Made by a program: the position numbers and the translations under genes. Of a stretch of 64,000 nucleotides of DNA, positions 3,550-40,943 are shown piece after piece. The stretch covers positions 4,666,001-4,730,000 of the forward strand of contig NZ_CP150203.1 in NCBI RefSeq assembly GCF_037969725.1, in the 5' to 3' direction. The first letter of the stretch is position 1; the number at the start of each line of letters is the position of its first letter. A model generated the notes under the pieces. It did not search any database. It was not told the origin of the DNA and was given only the letters and a program-made list of their open reading frames with translations. The stretch comes from Paenibacillus sp. FSL W8-0426 (GTDB lineage: Bacteria; Bacillota; Bacilli; Paenibacillales; Paenibacillaceae).

Positions 3550-3689
3550 CAGTGACCATTCAGGCGGCGGCGGTACTTATCCCGCTGGCCCCGAGCATGC
3601 AGCGCAATCAACATGCGGCCTTGCTGGAGCATCCGGCGTTCGAATCCTTCGAAAAACTCGCACAATTCGTCCAAGCGTTGTTCACTCAT
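3546..3689 (-). CDS. 47-residue early phage protein
   Basis: A short frame starting ATGAGTGAACAA at 3689, with AAAGGAGG eight bases upstream. The start overlaps the mazF stop as ATGA, and the stop overlaps the next gene as GTGA. It encodes MSEQRLDELCEFFEGFERRM and then a basic tail with YRRRLNGHW. The ribosome-binding site and double overlap make it a convincing real gene. Being cotranslated right after MazF, it might modulate the toxin, but nothing in the sequence proves this. Confidence 0.6.
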   Translation of the reverse strand: MSEQRLDELCEFFEGFERRMLQQGRMLIALHARGQRDKYRRRLNGHW

Positions 3690-4057
3690 ACATGGACCTC
3701 CTTTCTGTGTGGCACCGAGATGAGCCCGAGGCTTATCTTGAGCGCTTGCTCCATCCGTTCCATTTCCTTCGGGAACAAGTGAGATTTCTTCTTTATCAAC
3801 CTTCGTTTGTCCACTGTCCGGATCTGTTCGAACATGACCACTGAATCTTTCGGCAGCCCATTCGACCGTTCGATTTGGACATGTGTTGGTAAGTCTCTCT
3901 TGTTGCCGTCTGTTATAGCAGCGACGATCACCGTTGGTGAATACGTGTTACCCACATCATTTTGAATTACCAGTGCTGGACGAACTCCCTTCTGCTCACT
4001 GCCCACAACCTCGCCAAAATCGACCATGTAGATGTCACCGCGTTTGATTTGGTTCAT
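3686..4057 (-). CDS. mazF: MazF/NdoA-like mRNA interferase
   Basis: 123 residues if translation starts at the second methionine (4057), whose ATG overlaps the upstream stop as ATGA. The family core is intact: KRGDIYMVDFGEVVGSEQ, GVRPALVIQND, a SPTVIVAAIT strand and FEQIRTVDKRRL. These cover the substrate-binding and catalytic residues of Bacillus NdoA (MazF), which cleaves mRNA at specific short sites. The usual upstream MazE antitoxin is not recognisable. The preceding 84-residue gene is not an obvious ribbon-helix-helix or AbrB-like protein. It may be a toxin with a novel antitoxin, or a regulated host-shutoff nuclease expressed early in lytic growth. Confidence 0.85.
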   Translation of the reverse strand: MNQIKRGDIYMVDFGEVVGSEQKGVRPALVIQNDVGNTYSPTVIVAAITDGNKRDLPTHVQIERSNGLPKDSVVMFEQIRTVDKRRLIKKKSHLFPKEMERMEQALKISLGLISVPHRKEVHV

Positions 4058-4308
4058 GTACACTGCACCTCCAGTTCTTCCAAGCGCTCGCAGACATGTT
4101 GTACAAGGTCCATCTGATCGAGCATTTGTCCGGTAAAGGCGATTTCTTTCAGTCCGTCTATCTCGTAAACAAGTTCATAATTTTGTTTGAGTAGCGGGAG
4201 AATCAAAGCCAGTTCAGGCTGACCGACTATCAAGTTTCCGTTTTTGTCGGTGATCATTTGAACGATTTTTGCCAACTCCCGGTGAACATTGTGGACCATG
4301 ACTGCCAT
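4054..4308 (-). CDS. Unknown protein overlapping mazF; possible antitoxin
   Basis: 84 residues, acidic and mostly helical by composition (repeated L/E/Q blocks such as DQMDLVQHVCERLEELEVQ). No DNA-binding motif of MazE type is seen. It ends in an ATGA overlap with the MazF-like gene, the arrangement expected of an antitoxin-toxin pair. That is the only reason to suggest an antitoxin role. Start at 4308 with AGGGGATAGGGA upstream. An alternative start is the methionine four residues in. Confidence 0.5.
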   Translation of the reverse strand: MAVMVHNVHRELAKIVQMITDKNGNLIVGQPELALILPLLKQNYELVYEIDGLKEIAFTGQMLDQMDLVQHVCERLEELEVQCT

Positions 4309-4791: not shown

Positions 4792-4838
4792 ATAACCACC
4801 TACTTTCATCTAAATAAGTAACATTTCTATTGACTGAC

Positions 4839-4855
4839 ATACGGTTTTACCGTAT
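4839..4855. promoter_or_regulatory. 17-bp palindrome, operator candidate A
   Basis: Perfect dyad ATACGGT-TTT-ACCGTAT upstream of the early minus-strand gene at 4791. The same 17-bp architecture recurs at 8373-8389 between the -35 and -10 of the agr-like operon, so one DNA-binding protein probably recognises both. Confidence 0.6.
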
Positions 4856-4868
4856 ACTTTCTCTAGTA

Positions 4869-5138
4869 TCAATTCTCTAAATCAGAGAATTTATTCTCAA
4901 AAAAATATGCCGGATCAACCGAAAGACCTTTTCTGCAAATCTTCTCAAGATCATCTGCTGTTAACCTACACTTACCGTTAATGATCTTGTAAAACTTCTT
5001 ATCACCAATACCAGATCGTTCAGCAACAATTCTGAATACATAACCCTTAGACTTGATGTAACTTTGCAATCTAACATGGACAGGAACCTCAAAGCTTTCA
5101 GTATCATTCAAGTTAGCGATAGTCTCTGCTGGATTCAC
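4869..5138 (-). CDS. Cro-like XRE DNA-binding protein
   Basis: 89 residues from a GTG at 5138 with AAAGGAGG upstream. Residues ~25-75 form a helix-turn-helix of XRE type (LQSYIKSKGYVFRIVAERSGIGDKKFYKIINGKCRLTADDLEKIC). It is divergent from the CI-like gene at 5323, with operators between them. This is the Cro position of a phage genetic switch and the first gene of the leftward early operon. A role as early repressor or antirepressor is inferred from position and size. Confidence 0.75.
   Translation of the reverse strand: MNPAETIANLNDTESFEVPVHVRLQSYIKSKGYVFRIVAERSGIGDKKFYKIINGKCRLTADDLEKICRKGLSVDPAYFFENKFSDLEN
4873..4889. promoter_or_regulatory. XRE operator candidate, copy 2
   Basis: TTCTCT-AAATC-AGAGAA, an inverted repeat with 6-bp arms in the same spacing as the perfect dyad at 5173-5189. 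It overlaps the 3' end of the Cro-like gene and precedes the gene at 4791. Confidence 0.55.
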
Positions 5139-5231: not shown

Positions 5232-5322
5232 CGTTTTTTTTAAAAAAGTATTTGAAACGGAGAATAATTTTTCTCAGCTTGGACATTATGCTAATATCCA
5301 TAAAGGAGAGGTGAACTCAAAA

Positions 5323-5703
5323 ATGGCTGCAATTTACGCGGAAAGATTGAGAAAGATACGAAAAGACTTGAGACTCACTCAACTTCAAGTATCGCAACAC
5401 ACAGGAATAAATAATAAGACGTTGAGTGGTTATGAGGCCGGAAGAAACAAACCAGACTACGAGACTTTAAAGACCCTTTGTGATTTCTATGATGTTACAA
5501 TGGACTGGGTTTTAGGGCACACAAATAATCCCCACAGCCAGTTAAGCGAAGCTGAAAGGGATATGGTCGAGAAAGTGGATCTGGACGATGATTCATTCAT
5601 CAATGGGGATTTTAAATTTGCGGGACGTGAATTGACGGTAGAGGAAAAAAGAGAGTTACAAGCTATGGCTCGTCTGTTTCTGAATCGGAAGAAAGGGAAC
5701 TAA
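5323..5703 (+). CDS. CI-like XRE repressor
   Basis: 126 residues from the ATG at 5323, nine bases after AGGTG. A GTG at 5311 is an alternative. Residues ~8-62 are a classic XRE helix-turn-helix (AERLRKIRKDLRLTQLQVSQHTGINNKTLSGYEAGRNKPDYETL). The C-terminal half is acidic and then helical (ELTVEEKRELQAMARLFLNRKK), like ImmR/Xre repressors of Bacillus elements. There is no LexA-type peptidase domain, so induction must work through another route such as an antirepressor or peptidase. Divergent from the Cro-like gene. Most likely the lysogeny repressor. Confidence 0.75.
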   Translation: MAAIYAERLRKIRKDLRLTQLQVSQHTGINNKTLSGYEAGRNKPDYETLKTLCDFYDVTMDWVLGHTNNPHSQLSEAERDMVEKVDLDDDSFINGDFKFAGRELTVEEKRELQAMARLFLNRKKGN

Positions 5704-5877
5704 GAAACTTCTTAATGAGTTCTTGGTTTTCTGGCGTATCTTCTGCAATTGCTTTTAGGAAATGCTCGACATCAATGCTATTCATAAGGCATTACCCCCG
5801 GTATGTAGTATTTTAAATTATATACGAACGACTGTTCCTATGGAAGACTTAAAACTTAATATGGAGGCATACATAAT

Positions 5878-6105
5878 ATGGCGCTTACCTTCGGGAAGTG
5901 CCTGTTGCGTGATGTCCGCATCAAAGCTGGTTACACTCAGGAAGAGCTTTCTGAGGCCCTGCTTGAAGACTGCGGATTGAAGGTTTCCACCACCCTTTTG
6001 TCGCTCTACGAGAACGATAAGAGAACCATGCCTGCCCTCACTATGAGAGGGATCTGCATTATTCTCGGATGTTCAGAGACTGACATTTATGAGTGGCCAC
6101 TATAG
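5878..6105 (+). CDS. Small XRE regulator
   Basis: 75 residues. Almost the whole protein is one XRE helix-turn-helix (LRDVRIKAGYTQEELSEALLEDCGLKVSTTLLSLYENDKRTMPALTMRGICIILGC). Start ATG at 5878 after a GGAGG 11 bases upstream. Follows the CI-like repressor on the same strand after 174 bp, and faces the end of the minus-strand agr-like operon. It may be a second repressor for the agr-like promoter or the 17-bp palindrome (speculative). Confidence 0.7.
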   Translation: MALTFGKCLLRDVRIKAGYTQEELSEALLEDCGLKVSTTLLSLYENDKRTMPALTMRGICIILGCSETDIYEWPL

Positions 6106-6313
6106 CGCATCAGGCCGGAGCAATCACTGCTCCACCGGAGGTATTTCTTTACCCCTGTGTAAAGTTCGGAAACATCAACAGGAAATCTTGTTCCTATTTC
6201 CCATTTTGCCCCATATCACAAGATTTGTAAATTAGAATTGGTCAGATGAGCTAGTTCCAAAATTCGACAAGATGATACATATGATTCATATTGAACTATT
6301 TTTTAAAAGCAAA
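6106..6313. other. Intergenic stretch with inverted repeats
   Basis: About 200 bp between convergent genes. It holds a GGAGCA/TGCTCC hairpin near 6116-6132 with no T-run, and a 9-bp inverted repeat AAATCTTGT (6183-6191) / ACAAGATTT (6218-6226) separated by 26 bp. No gene seen. Confidence 0.35.
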
Positions 6314-6348
6314 AAGAGGGGCCCCCGCGCTATGACGGAGGCCCCTCT
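6314..6348 (-). terminator. Terminator of the agr-like operon
   Basis: On the minus strand a GC-rich hairpin (GAGGGGCC arm pairing with GGCCCCTC) followed by TTTTT, directly after the LytTR gene. The flanking A-run suggests it may also work on the other strand. Confidence 0.8.
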
Positions 6349-6350
6349 TT

Positions 6351-6737
6351 TCATTGGTATCTGGGTACGAGTTTCCCATCATTCAACGGAAACTCCTTAA
6401 TAAATCTGTTGTATTTGCTTTCGGACATCGTGCATTTAAATTCGCCAATCCTTCGGAATCTTTCGAAATATGCAACGTATCGTAATGTGTCGATTCGGCA
6501 AATTCTTTCGACATTCACGGAGTTATTTCTGTCAACATCTCGGAAGACAGCGCCGCTTGTATTAAAAACATGGGTCCAATATTCTTTAGAACCTGCGCTG
6601 TAGTACGTTCCTTTTTCTGTGTAGAAAGCGACCTTGTTATACTTGCGCACATAGGAAAGATATAGTATGTCGTTGATCGGCACCAGCACAAGACCTGTGT
6701 CTCCATGCGGATCAATCGTAAGTGTTACTTGTTCCAT
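6351..6737 (-). CDS. LytTR DNA-binding protein without receiver domain
   Basis: 128 residues. Residues ~15-110 fit a LytTR domain: VPINDILYLSYVRKYNKVAFYTE, a YYSAGSKEYW turn, then FRDVDRNNSVNVERICRID. In agr systems the response regulator AgrA has a receiver plus a LytTR domain. Here only the DNA-binding part exists, and there is no phosphoacceptor aspartate module. ATG at 6737 with GGAGG nine bases upstream, 18 bp after the AgrD-like gene. It is the last gene of the operon and probably its transcriptional output. How it would be controlled by a peptide without phosphorylation is unknown. Confidence 0.75.
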   Translation of the reverse strand: MEQVTLTIDPHGDTGLVLVPINDILYLSYVRKYNKVAFYTEKGTYYSAGSKEYWTHVFNTSGAVFRDVDRNNSVNVERICRIDTLRYVAYFERFRRIGEFKCTMSESKYNRFIKEFPLNDGKLVPRYQ

Positions 6738-6754
6738 ATATGTGATCCTCCATT

Positions 6755-6883
6755 TTATTTTTTCAGAAGGCGTTTGGACGGCTTCGGATTGTTAACGAAA
6801 ATCAAGCTTGCAGGCAGCACAGTAAGAGCAGCAATGGCACCCAGACTTGATGCAATCGCGGAATAAATAGCCACTTTAAACAT
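6755..6883 (-). CDS. AgrD-like autoinducer pre-peptide
   Basis: 42 residues: an amphipathic/hydrophobic leader (MFKVAIYSAIASSLGAIAAL) and then the tail SLIFVNNPKPSKRLLKK. Staphylococcal AgrD has a five-residue ring beginning with cysteine, followed by a charged tail with a conserved proline and leucine. Here serine takes the cysteine position (predicted ring SLIFV), with a basic NNPKPSKRLL tail. A serine lactone is known from Staphylococcus intermedius. The ATG lies eight bases after GGGAGG and overlaps the last eight bases of agrB, the usual B-D arrangement. Too short for most gene finders. Ring boundaries are inferred. Confidence 0.75.
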   Translation of the reverse strand: MFKVAIYSAIASSLGAIAALTVLPASLIFVNNPKPSKRLLKK

Positions 6884-7418
6884 GGTTGTCACCTCCCTTC
6901 GTGATGCACTCATTGGCTACGAGTGTCATGGCCTGTACAAAAAAAGCAATAGCAGCCCAAGACGATCCGAACCAAAGGTTTGATGCAACGATCAGGAATG
7001 ATATGACAGTGAGTAGCGGGTAAAATCGTTCTGGTATGCGCGTCTGGTGCTCGATACCGGACGGAGCATAATGGAGCACGATAACCATACTGATCAGCGT
7101 GAGTACCATGGTCCATGTCGAATTGATGCTTACCATACTTAACGCCGTCGCTGCGCCAGAAGTTACAAGGGCACATCCAATACTTGATTCGAGATGTAGG
7201 CCGCCCGAGACAAGCCGGAGCAACGCAAAGCATTTGAGCAGCATAATGACCTCTGATCCCCGGCCAGTAAACATCGCTCCGATAATCGTAAACAGTACGA
7301 CAGCAGCCGTATTCAAGATGACGATCAGCGTGTGCCGCATGTCATCCTCGTGAACCGGATGGTTTGGCACCACTGACTTGATATGTCGGGCTATTCGGCC
7401 CGCCGCATTCTCAATCAC
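6876..7418 (-). CDS. agrB: AgrB-like peptide-processing membrane protease
   Basis: 180 residues with four or more hydrophobic segments. The diagnostic AgrB motif is present at about residues 67-86, RLVSGGLHLESSIGCALVTS. The catalytic histidine and cysteine are seven residues apart, as H77 and C84 are in S. aureus AgrB. AgrB cuts the AgrD tail and cyclises the peptide at the membrane. GTG start at 7418, inside the upstream gene's stop region, with GGGAGG six bases before it. Overlaps the AgrD-like gene downstream. High confidence in family membership. That it acts on the adjacent peptide is inferred from the overlap. Confidence 0.9.
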   Translation of the reverse strand: MIENAAGRIARHIKSVVPNHPVHEDDMRHTLIVILNTAAVVLFTIIGAMFTGRGSEVIMLLKCFALLRLVSGGLHLESSIGCALVTSGAATALSMVSINSTWTMVLTLISMVIVLHYAPSGIEHQTRIPERFYPLLTVISFLIVASNLWFGSSWAAIAFFVQAMTLVANECITKGGDNHV

Positions 7419-7998
7419 TCATGTCCTCCCTCTCTTTACGCACTGCGTAGTATAAAAAAAGTACTGATGATGCCCCGAAGAATAGAATGTTAGCCCAAGA
7501 TTCTTGGATATACATCGTGATCGCCAACAGTACAAATGCAACCAAGATGACGGACACAACCATGATCTTCTCCCAACGGAATCTCAACAAGTCATAGTCC
7601 GCGGTAAAGCCAAATCCGAACCGGTACAGTCCATACGATAGAACCAGGAACAGAATGCTTGTCACGAGCTGTAGGAGTTCCCCTCCAACTACGTTAAACA
7701 ATATGGCCTGTACAATGCCGTAAAGAAAAAATCCAGTACAAGATATGATTGCCGACCAAATTAGCGGCAGCCGCACGATCGTTGCCAAGAAAAGCACGTA
7801 GCATAACAGGTTAATGACTGTAGCCAGGTAACCAAGCTCTAGCCCCCGGAGAAAGTGGCTTTGCAGGCCCATCAGGATCGATACAACCACCGTTTGCCAG
7901 ATAAAGTCCATCGGGTTTTCTCTGAATATTGCCATCATGAATACGAATACTGCTAATACCTCAAGCGTTGAAAACAACAGAAACGTGACCAATTCCAT
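7411..7998 (-). CDS. AgrC-like seven-helix membrane sensor lacking a kinase
   Basis: 195 residues from ATG at 7998 (AGGGGA upstream). About seven hydrophobic helices: LVTFLLFSTLEVLAVFVFMM near the start, then segments around residues 37-55, 60-80, 82-110, 112-130, 148-167 and 171-190. The layout and the E-x-LAVF...FR start resemble the peptide-binding half of AgrC-type sensors. The protein ends in KEREDMSD exactly where the histidine kinase domain should begin. The stop is native, since agrB starts inside it, so this is not a fresh truncation. It may be a receptor, decoy, immunity or transport partner for the peptide. Relation to AgrC is inferred from topology and context. Confidence 0.6.
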   Translation of the reverse strand: MELVTFLLFSTLEVLAVFVFMMAIFRENPMDFIWQTVVVSILMGLQSHFLRGLELGYLATVINLLCYVLFLATIVRLPLIWSAIISCTGFFLYGIVQAILFNVVGGELLQLVTSILFLVLSYGLYRFGFGFTADYDLLRFRWEKIMVVSVILVAFVLLAITMYIQESWANILFFGASSVLFLYYAVRKEREDMSD

Positions 7999-8014
7999 CC
8001 GACTGTCCCCTTTT

Positions 8015-8329
8015 CTAATCCGGCTTGTCTTTGTTTCTCCAATCTGCCATGCGCTCTTGGTACTCATCGATGGATGGTTTGTACCAAAAAGGCCGGCTGC
8101 CTACCATAACATCAGGCTCGGGAAACATTTTGTTTTTGCGGACATGGTGCATATTCTTGGGGTCTACGCCTATCTGGTCGGCCACTTCCTTGCTGCCGAG
8201 CAGCGGCGGATACTTCTTCCCGCGAATGATCTGCCTTGCGTCCTCCAGCTCATCTACCAATGCTGCGATCTGTTCGCCGACCTCTCCTCCTAACTGGTTG
8301 GCCATCTCGCGGTATTGATTCAAGGTCAA
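8015..8329 (-). CDS. AlpA/MerR-like helix-turn-helix protein
   Basis: 104 residues. The N-terminal ~45 residues are helical. Residues ~46-95 (LLGSKEVADQIGVDPKNMHHVRKNKMFPEPDVMVGSRPFWYKPSIDEY) match the AlpA/excisionase winged-helix pattern, with a fixed aromatic near the end. It heads the agr-like operon, 16 bp before the sensor gene. The promoter upstream has a 17-bp palindrome between -35 and -10, so autoregulation is plausible. An excisionase or phage-control role is an alternative. Confidence 0.7.
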   Translation of the reverse strand: MTLNQYREMANQLGGEVGEQIAALVDELEDARQIIRGKKYPPLLGSKEVADQIGVDPKNMHHVRKNKMFPEPDVMVGSRPFWYKPSIDEYQERMADWRNKDKPD

Positions 8330-8369: not shown

Positions 8370-8398
8370 AATATACGGTAAAGCCGTATGTTTTTCAA
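8370..8398 (-). promoter_or_regulatory. Promoter and operator of the agr-like operon
   Basis: Minus-strand TTGAAA (8393-8398), 17-bp spacer, TATATT (8370-8375). The spacer is almost entirely filled by the near-perfect dyad at 8373-8389 (ATACGGC-TTT-ACCGTAT on the minus strand). A partial half-site (TTTACCGTTT) lies at about 8348-8357. A protein bound here would occlude RNA polymerase. Confidence 0.65.
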
Positions 8399-9112: not shown

Positions 9113-9133
9113 TTTGCATACCTCCCAAAATGA

Positions 9134-9145
9134 GAACGTCTGTTT
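9134..9145 (-). promoter_or_regulatory. SOS (LexA) box and promoter of the prophage cassette
   Basis: GAAC-GTCT-GTTT, matching the Bacillus LexA half-sites, lies just downstream of a minus-strand TATAAT (with TTGTTT 18 bp further up). The sequence TTCGCATATAATA around the -10 is shared with the chromosomal SOS promoter near 43235. Confidence 0.7.
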
Positions 9146-9275
9146 GTATTATATGCGAAGTGTGACAAATCAAACAACTGCAAAAAAGCTCCATAACATA
9201 GAAACATTTTCCTAGTTCTGTTAGACTATTCATTATTATCTCCAATTTGATTGGAGACATTTGAGGTGATGACCA

Positions 9276-39752: not shown

Positions 39753-40943
39753 ATGCCACATTATTTCGACGAAAAAACAAACAGTCACTATTTCAAAATC
39801 AACTACAAAGATGAAAGCGGGCAATATAAACAACTTTTACGTCGGGGTTTTAAAACCATAAAAGAAGTAAAGGCCGCGATGGCTAAAGCCGAAACTGAGA
39901 TCAACGAAGGTAAATTTGTAAAAGAGTCGAAGATCCTTTACGAAGATTTTATGAGAGATTGGCTTGAGGATAAAAAGCGGAACATCAAAAAGGGAACTTG
40001 GATTATGTATAGCAGTTTGGTAAACAATCACATCCTTCCCATTAGAGTAAATGCAGCAGGAAAGAAAGTTGGTCTATCCGGGTTCACACTCGGTAAGATC
40101 AAGGCCAGACACATAAAAGACCTGCTTCATCATTTGCACGATTCACAAGCATTATCAGATGAAAATATTCAAAAGTGTTATTCGATCATTAAGGACTCCT
40201 TGAAAATCGCCAGAACTGAGGGGTTGGTTTCGGACAATCAAGCAGAATTGGTAAAACGTCCCACCAAGCGTAAAAAGGAAATGCAGGTTTGGACCCTGGA
40301 ACAATCCCAGCAATTTTTAAGGGGGGCTGCTTCTGATCCACTTTACAACGTCTTCCTTTTGGCGCTAACGACCGGTATGAGGCAGGGTGAAATTCTTGGG
40401 CTTAGGTTGAAAGATGTTGACCCGGAGAACAGCATAATTAGCGTCACGCAGATTTTGCAGCATGATGGCAAGGGATTTGATTTCGGAGCAAAAACACTAT
40501 CAGGTGTAAGACCGATCAGATTGGACAAGTCAACCATGGAATCTTTGCAGAAGCATATTAGAAAATCCAAAGAAAAGCGAATGGAATTTGCTGATGTCTT
40601 TGAAGATAACGGGCTGGTATTCTGCACGAAGACCGGAAAACCGTTGTCTCCACGAAACGTGTACAGAAGCTTCGAACGGATCATAAACACAATTAATGAG
40701 GAACTGCAGAAGAAGAGAAGTGCGGGGCTTGATGTTGGTCCAGATCTACCGAAAATCAGGTTCCATGACATGAGACATACTCACGTCACATTCCTGATCA
40801 AGAATCGGGAAACACCACAAGCAATAGCGGAGCGTTTGGGATGGTCTGATACAAGGATGATTGATAATTACGCTCATATTCGCCCAGACATTCAAATGGA
40901 CGTTGCTGAAACATTCGGTCGCTCTTTCTACTCATCTAACTGA
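39753..40943 (+). CDS. int: Tyrosine integrase
   Basis: 396 residues. N-terminal arm-binding domain (YFKINYKDESGQYKQLLRRGFKT), SAM-like core-binding domain (~60-165), and catalytic domain with Arg in TTGMRQGEILGL, HDMRHTHVT and tyrosine in MIDNYAHIRPD. Tn916/ICEBs1-type architecture. Located 117 bp from the 3' end of tRNA-Val, which is therefore the probable attachment target. The stop codon is part of a repeated octamer. Confidence 0.95.
   Translation: MPHYFDEKTNSHYFKINYKDESGQYKQLLRRGFKTIKEVKAAMAKAETEINEGKFVKESKILYEDFMRDWLEDKKRNIKKGTWIMYSSLVNNHILPIRVNAAGKKVGLSGFTLGKIKARHIKDLLHHLHDSQALSDENIQKCYSIIKDSLKIARTEGLVSDNQAELVKRPTKRKKEMQVWTLEQSQQFLRGAASDPLYNVFLLALTTGMRQGEILGLRLKDVDPENSIISVTQILQHDGKGFDFGAKTLSGVRPIRLDKSTMESLQKHIRKSKEKRMEFADVFEDNGLVFCTKTGKPLSPRNVYRSFERIINTINEELQKKRSAGLDVGPDLPKIRFHDMRHTHVTFLIKNRETPQAIAERLGWSDTRMIDNYAHIRPDIQMDVAETFGRSFYSSN

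Follow-up and report, generated by a model that had tools for sequence, protein, structure and literature searches.

A prophage agr-type cassette without kinase or receiver domains conserves a sensor-LytTR pair across phages and Paenibacillaceae genomes

How could a peptide signal be passed on by an agr-type locus that encodes neither a kinase nor a receiver domain? The question is raised by a five-gene cassette in Paenibacillus sp. FSL W8-0426, located in a stretch of 64,000 nucleotides (the window; positions 4666001-4730000 of the 6.9-Mb genome). This window carries a prophage, recognisable by its genes for terminase, portal, capsid, tail, lysin and RecT; an integrase gene that may belong to it lies at window positions 39753-40943. 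The cassette occupies the minus strand from 8329 to 6351 and encodes, in this order, an AlpA/Xis-like protein, a membrane sensor, AgrB, AgrD and a LytTR protein (Table 1). We propose, with slightly better than even confidence, that it forms a complete phosphorylation-free peptide quorum-sensing circuit in which the sensor acts directly on LytTR. In such a circuit AgrB would cleave AgrD and export a short peptide, probably a serine lactone, for which the seven-helix protein would be the receptor. Because the sensor has no kinase and LytTR no receiver, we hypothesise that the two proteins touch at the cytoplasmic face and signal in this direct way, the sensor holding or releasing LytTR according to peptide occupancy, and that LytTR would then bind DNA. 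The output in the window's phage is probably lysis/lysogeny control, since a CI/Cro-like module adjoins the cassette and its CI-ward promoter has a 17-bp operator in common with that of the cassette.

The initial annotation, made from the sequence alone, had described five agr-type genes without kinase or receiver, and family library scans, the sensor model and the open reading frames (ORFs) confirm this description. The predicted sensor model has seven helices (pLDDT 92.4), and the 195-aa protein ends with helix 7. In the library scans it had no family match apart from a phage 'membrane protein' PHROG, and no kinase family was detected in it or, at E <= 0.01, in any of 81 sensor relatives. 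The LytTR model (pLDDT 90.9) has the LytTR domain of AgrA and other LytTR domains as its nearest solved structures; PF04397 was matched by 62 of 68 LytTR relatives, and the 68 LytTR partners scanned gave no receiver-family match. Among 115 sensor-LytTR pairs, 106 have single LytTR domains of 109-150 aa, none with room for a receiver, and nine have tandem LytTR of 235-246 aa. As one partner has no kinase and the other no receiver, there is no phosphorelay of the ordinary kind between them. AgrB was said to have intact H/C catalytic spacing, and its match to PF04647 and the invariance of H75 and C82 across five members agree with this. The AgrD-like ORF matched no library model.

The cassette is a conserved four-gene system present in phages and genomes, and not the stripped one-off for which it was initially taken. 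In the phages Abouo, Emery and Harrison a membrane protein, AgrB, a small ORF and a ~120-aa protein, the last picked up by a LytTR profile, follow one another as in the window. AgrB alignment yielded 41 loci on viral contigs, and a survey of their neighbourhoods found the sensor in 40/41, a LytTR gene in 36/41 and sensor, AgrB and LytTR together in 36/41 (one contig, that of L047, ends too early). In a Paenibacillaceae-family set, where at most 20 candidates of each genome were scored, the sensor was matched in 91 of 148 genomes. Nearly all sensor frames among the matches listed measure 193-329 aa; the outliers are of 132 aa and of 426 aa (L095), the latter with extra residues N-terminal to the sensor and no Pfam match. 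A class-wide scan, scoring up to 8 candidates per genome, gave a match in 40 of 348 genomes. Of the 54 matches listed, 40 are in frames that, at 193-250 aa, leave no space for a kinase; a further eight, at E <= 1e-11, lie in frames of 412-453 aa, and six are weaker. A genome-contig scan returned one relative, in Cohnella faecalis, and plasmids gave no match.

For a census we pooled viral, phage and fetched genome loci, the last mostly the better-scoring part of the family-scan matches, and removed the duplicates L042, L065, L107 and L001 before counting. This gave 135 sensors, 102 of them with at least 1.5 kb of downstream sequence. AgrB is next to the sensor in 97 of these 102 (in L103 as a 36-aa fragment only), LytTR is present in 90 and both are present in 86. 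Three loci (L112, L152, L101) encode sensor, AgrD and LytTR without AgrB, and two (L070, L072) sensor and LytTR alone; the persistence of this pair in five loci without AgrB suggests that sensor plus LytTR behaves as a receiving unit.

Cassettes of this kind had been noticed before, although the initial annotation regarded the architecture as undescribed. For the phages Davies, Emery and Abouo, AgrB and AgrD together with membrane proteins that have no HATPase domain were described by Hargreaves et al. 2014 (PMC3901668); the available part of that article mentions no LytTR gene in these cassettes. Other papers on these phages list the AgrB gene in passing. The Abouo and Emery cassettes resemble that of the window, with a ~122-aa LytTR gene next, but their AgrD belongs to a Lys-type class whereas the window's is of Ser type. 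The agr3 locus of the Clostridioides phage phiCDHM1 shares phage-borne AgrB, AgrD and sensor with the window, but its AgrC carries the HATPase domain that the window sensor lacks, and the available text describes no LytTR gene there (PMC3901668). Searches of open-licence papers, preprints excluded, brought up no title or abstract opening that describes an agr system lacking the kinase and paired with LytTR. Compared with agr itself (AgrBDCA), the cassette has the AgrB peptidase, an AgrD-like propeptide, a seven-helix sensor in the place of AgrC and an AgrA-type LytTR output; it is not a member of that system, as two defining domains, the kinase and the receiver, are missing.

A closer functional parallel may be the LytTR Regulatory Systems (LRS) such as HdrRM and BrsRM of Streptococcus mutans, which like the cassette combine a receiver-less LytTR regulator and a membrane protein in one operon without a phosphorelay (PMC6193735, available part). 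However, in the S. mutans type the regulator gene precedes the membrane gene, an order reversed in the window and its relatives and also, according to the same part of that source, in LRS-like Bacteroides operons. The 9-bp direct repeats that LRS carry immediately before the -35, at a spacing of ~12 bp, were not found at the window promoter, and LRS membrane proteins, which inhibit their regulators, have no Pfam family in common with the window sensor. Peptide-maturation genes are not mentioned for LRS in the available part of the article, whereas the cassette has AgrB and AgrD, and the terms AgrB, AgrC, Paenibacillus and phage do not occur in its main text. Gene order and promoter repeats thus place the cassette outside the LRS. 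In its mode of action it is most likely LRS-like, with an agr peptide as the input.

Peptide communication beside lysogeny control is also known from arbitrium (AimR-AimP-AimX), in which the phage peptide is linear and imported and its receptor, of the RRNPP type, is cytosolic. The cassette has an AgrB/AgrD peptide and a membrane sensor instead of an RRNPP/TPR cytosolic receptor, and library scans gave no TPR family match in any cassette protein.

Co-variation of the cassette proteins points to the sensor and LytTR as partners. In 87 of 105 complete operons retained after similarity thinning, the partial correlation (r) between sensor and LytTR given AgrB was 0.61, against 0.11 for AgrB and LytTR given the sensor, and none of 500 shuffles reached 0.61. 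With another alignment and distance the values were 0.53 and 0.16, the difference exceeding zero in 300/300 subsamples, and the contrast was also seen within AgrD classes (Ser, 0.46 vs 0.16; Lys, 0.44 vs 0.09). The AgrB gene lies between those of the sensor and LytTR, so linkage alone predicts the opposite pattern. Direct sensor-LytTR contact is probably the simplest reading of these values, and the initial expectation that a functional circuit needs a kinase appears too strong given a conserved pairing that points to direct coupling.

In the window's phage lineage, a 17-bp palindrome (ATACGG-N5-CCGTAT) links the cassette to lysogeny control, being found in only two promoters of the prophage, the cassette's and the CI-ward one. 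Its position in the spacer of the cassette promoter (site 1) is aligned in L024-L027. The exact palindrome occurs at one other place in the window (site 2) and once elsewhere in the 6.9-Mb genome, with 0 for the reversed control. Of nine window-type loci, eight (window, L024, L025, L027, L164, L165, L205, L217) contain two copies of the core TACGG-N5-CCGTA, one lying 56-63 bp upstream of the AlpA-like start and the other ~3.5 kb downstream of it. Both copies match all 17 bp in seven of these eight, and L205 is one outer base off at site 2; L026 has site 1 only and a different CI region. A scan for the full promoter-palindrome pattern gave 6 sites (reversed control 1) in 4/394 family genomes, each of which also has the cassette. 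The initial annotation's placement of the cassette beside a phage lysogeny module is confirmed by the CI-like and Cro-like genes, and the CI-ward promoter stands where lambda has PRE. Promoter-like sites numbered 5 observed vs 4.3 expected around the cassette promoter and 8 vs 2.8 around the CI-ward promoter, the latter promoter being similar in relatives by eye. By eye, the palindromes of the CI/Cro-like region differ (TTCTCT-N5-AGAGAA).

The leading candidates for binding the palindrome are the small XRE protein and the AlpA-like protein, whose relatives share 55-85% identity; the two are inseparable from each other. The CI-like protein is disfavoured by L026, in which site 1 is retained although CI identity is down to 29%. 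LytTR is disfavoured as well, since loci with a LytTR identity of just 28-33% still have the core.

Several observations weigh against a circuit in which the sensor acts directly on LytTR and through it on the lysogeny switch. The retention of the palindrome core despite LytTR divergence suggests that LytTR is probably not its binder and that any link from signal to CI is indirect. Of the 102 census sensors, 12 have no LytTR found downstream, among them a chromosomal locus of the host (L002), and the same applies to 8/33 sensors with shorter downstream sequence. The co-variation contrast narrows when the sensor is trimmed to 80 columns (0.43 vs 0.29) or 60 columns (0.39 vs 0.33), so part of it may reflect the sensor's greater length. 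Direct repeats of LRS type were not enriched in the 160 bp before 120 non-redundant sensors (10 vs 8.3 expected at periods of 20-23 bp; 120 of 134 regions after thinning), a scan that misses the promoter where another gene leads the operon. Before the first gene of the nine window-type loci, 2 repeats were found vs 0.66 expected, one of them the repeated palindrome. Given this lack of enrichment, no LytTR binding site was identified. In the window promoter region there is no 9-bp direct repeat with 8/9 matches at 20-23 bp periods; periods of 27 and 39 bp were slightly up in the sensor scan (6 and 7 vs 1.6 and 1.9 expected), word counts gave mainly -10-like words and one element common to five loci, and alignments of genome-relative promoters showed conserved blocks with no identifiable LytTR site.

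These points leave room for a different role of the seven-helix protein, as a helper, decoy or self-immunity protein beside a LytTR that acts as an ordinary autonomous phage regulator and carries the signal by its level instead of by touching the sensor. We consider this unlikely. Eleven of the 12 sensors without LytTR adjoin AgrB, as such a role would allow, and the lack of a LytTR site at cassette promoters is in its favour; on the other side stand the five AgrB-less loci that keep sensor and LytTR, and the co-variation of these two independently of AgrB.

Direct signalling from sensor to LytTR could also have its output in functions of the host or of a moron (bacteriocin or surface genes, for example), with the proximity to CI/Cro incidental. 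This we regard as quite unlikely. LytTR is present in 53/61 genome loci with enough downstream sequence, some of which may lie in prophages. The host has a second copy at 4.258 Mb (G000:C1:4258285-4259302; L002, L006), a kinase-less sensor-AgrB-AgrD set of Lys type with no LytTR found after it and, by eye, no obvious phage genes adjoining. Against an incidental location, the CI-ward promoter is the only other one to have the palindrome in phages of the window's lineage, and a small XRE gene stands 3' of the cassette in the window, L024-L028, L030, L164, L205 and L217. The promoter element TTGGCTATGGAATTGCCA of the 4.258-Mb locus is common to the viral loci L029, L032, L053 and L057, across both AgrD types.

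The initial annotation had also suggested that the phage might hijack a host agr system, the sensor or LytTR plugging into a host AgrC kinase or response regulator. A 2025 review (PMC11945551, available part) states of phage agr sets in general that they lack AgrA and proposes that they may use the AgrA of the host, and the host has one orthodox AgrC/AgrA-like pair of kinase and LytTR response regulator, at 3.887 Mb (G000:C1:3887352-3888939; L009, L022, L171). No agrB adjoins this pair. The search for a host kinase able to pair with the sensor gave none among the candidates scored: two places match the sensor profile at E <= 0.001, and both are kinase-less. As LytTR has no receiver either, hijacking is unsupported and, in our view, highly improbable.

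Relatives of the sensor that are long enough for a kinase occur in other Bacilli. These proteins of 406-450 aa (L190-L196) lie directly upstream of AgrB, in the place of AgrC, and the sensor profile aligns with them at an hhalign probability of 99.4, in a comparison made with these proteins. The next gene in L191, L192 and L196 encodes a receiver-bearing LytTR response regulator, which is the window's order plus the missing parts. Six of the seven (L194 was left out) were scanned and gave no Pfam kinase domain, in a scan that drops most weak matches; the profile of the long relatives weakly matches the ATPase half of the host AgrC-like kinase (probability 38). The long relatives may therefore be degenerate kinases and L190-L196 possible pseudokinase agr systems, in which case loss of phosphotransfer may have preceded loss of the domains. 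In the sensor tree (117 of 144 rows after similarity thinning) they fall in two places, and the tree does not settle the number and order of kinase losses.

Set against textbook agr, the missing kinase and receiver could in principle mark a decaying remnant without function. This seems extremely improbable, since all five cassette genes are under purifying selection (dN 0.07-0.42, with dS at least 1.48 or saturated) and the frames are open in most relatives.

The AgrD-like peptides fall into two main classes. If the ring register is assumed to be that of staphylococcal AgrD, as position relative to the PxxL tail, the ring position is Ser in 57 and Cys in 3 of 104 unique cores; another 40 have Lys at the following residue and 4 fit none of these patterns, so that the Cys of agr is replaced in all but the 3 Cys and 4 unclassed cores. 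The window's AgrD is of Ser type with a PxxL-type tail. No AgrD-like ORF was found at 11 of 131 agrB places, and the Ser-type sensor of L033 had no match among named phages. On the sensor tree the AgrD class (Ser or Lys) changes twice, as expected if the sensor reads the peptide, although linked inheritance would give the same. The Lys-type class (L003, L004, L005, L043-L062) has no Cys or Ser at the ring position, and its cores carry Gly (34) or His (6) five residues ahead of the PxxL tail; its product is possibly a macrolactam or a linear peptide.

A wider proposal, to which we give rather less than an even chance, is that direct receptor-LytTR contact defines a phosphorelay-free class of agr in Paenibacillaceae-type genomes and prophages. 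It would have Ser-lactone and Lys (possibly lactam or linear) types, and would be wired in the window's lineage through the shared operator to the CI-establishment promoter, so that lysogeny would follow peptide density. If direct sensor-LytTR signalling holds, it would be a simpler form of bacterial quorum sensing, shared by phages, and would show that a LytTR factor can be under the direct control of a peptide receptor, unlike in textbook two-component agr. It would also suggest a candidate kind of ligand for LRS and explain how AgrA-less phage agr cassettes act. Prophages may then sense each other by a second peptide channel besides arbitrium, and genes for 'hypothetical protein' or 'putative membrane protein' beside AgrB become candidate receptors.

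Table 1 Features of the cassette and the adjoining lysogeny region (window coordinates)
Feature	Position	Strand	Size	Details
Cassette promoter-like site TTGAAA-17-TATATT	8370..8398	-		10/12 consensus matches; aligns with L024-L027
Palindrome ATACGG-N5-CCGTAT, site 1	8373..8389		17 bp	Within promoter spacer, overlaps -10
AlpA/Xis-like DNA-binding protein	8015..8329	-	104 aa	TTG start; Xis_Gifsy_1 E 5e-6 (below cut-off), phrog_597 E 5e-10
Kinase-less seven-helix sensor	7411..7998	-	195 aa	phrog_15604 E 2e-5; 8-bp overlap with agrB
AgrB, membrane cysteine peptidase	6876..7418	-	180 aa	PF04647 47.6 bits
AgrD-like propeptide	6755..6883	-	42 aa	Ser at ring position, predicted ring SLIFV; ORF overlaps agrB
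Receiver-less LytTR DNA-binding protein	6351..6737	-	128 aa	PF04397 23.1 bits (cut-off 22.6)
Hairpin and T run, likely terminator	6312..6350	-		Directly 3' of LytTR stop; by eye
Small XRE protein	5878..6105	+	75 aa	LexA-like box 5825-5838; conserved adjoining cassette
CI-like XRE repressor	5311..5703	+	130 aa	HTH_3, phrog_8
Cro-like HTH protein	4869..5138	-	89 aa	HTH_26, barely above cut-off
Palindrome copy, site 2	4839..4855		17 bp	Same place inside CI-ward promoter as site 1 in its own
CI-ward promoter-like site TTGACT-17-TATACT	4830..4858	+		10/12 consensus matches; antisense to Cro-like gene

The likely terminator element is also found 3' of LytTR in L024-L027; a simple terminator scan of the window does not list it. 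In addition to the box before the small XRE gene, a LexA-like box precedes an HTH/YolD gene pair (9133-9146); both have 2 mismatches each vs a Bacillus consensus, and the XRE box of L024 is a full fit by eye. The early region of the prophage also carries a PemK/MazF-like toxin gene (3686-4063).

Variants of the cassette were seen in other loci. Phage Emery has two tandem sensors (L004:4607-5272 and 5340-6008) before a single AgrB, and L041 a second sensor on the opposite strand. Besides the bare LytTR, L048 (7179-8015) and L060 (7127-7999) encode a 278-290-aa protein with a C-terminal LytTR, the first half of which looks receiver-like by eye in L060. The LytTR partner is named peptidase or dipeptidyl aminopeptidase in phrog_15081 and in phage Harrison (HARRISON_41; L005:6648-7004); 22 of 23 members of the phrog_15081 alignment match Pfam LytTR, so the peptidase name looks wrong. 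In four loci (L028, L030, L031, L036) with a different AlpA-like gene, the cassette promoter has twin palindromes around its -10, of the form TGTMTTG-N4-CAAKACA and at a spacing of 33-34 bp.

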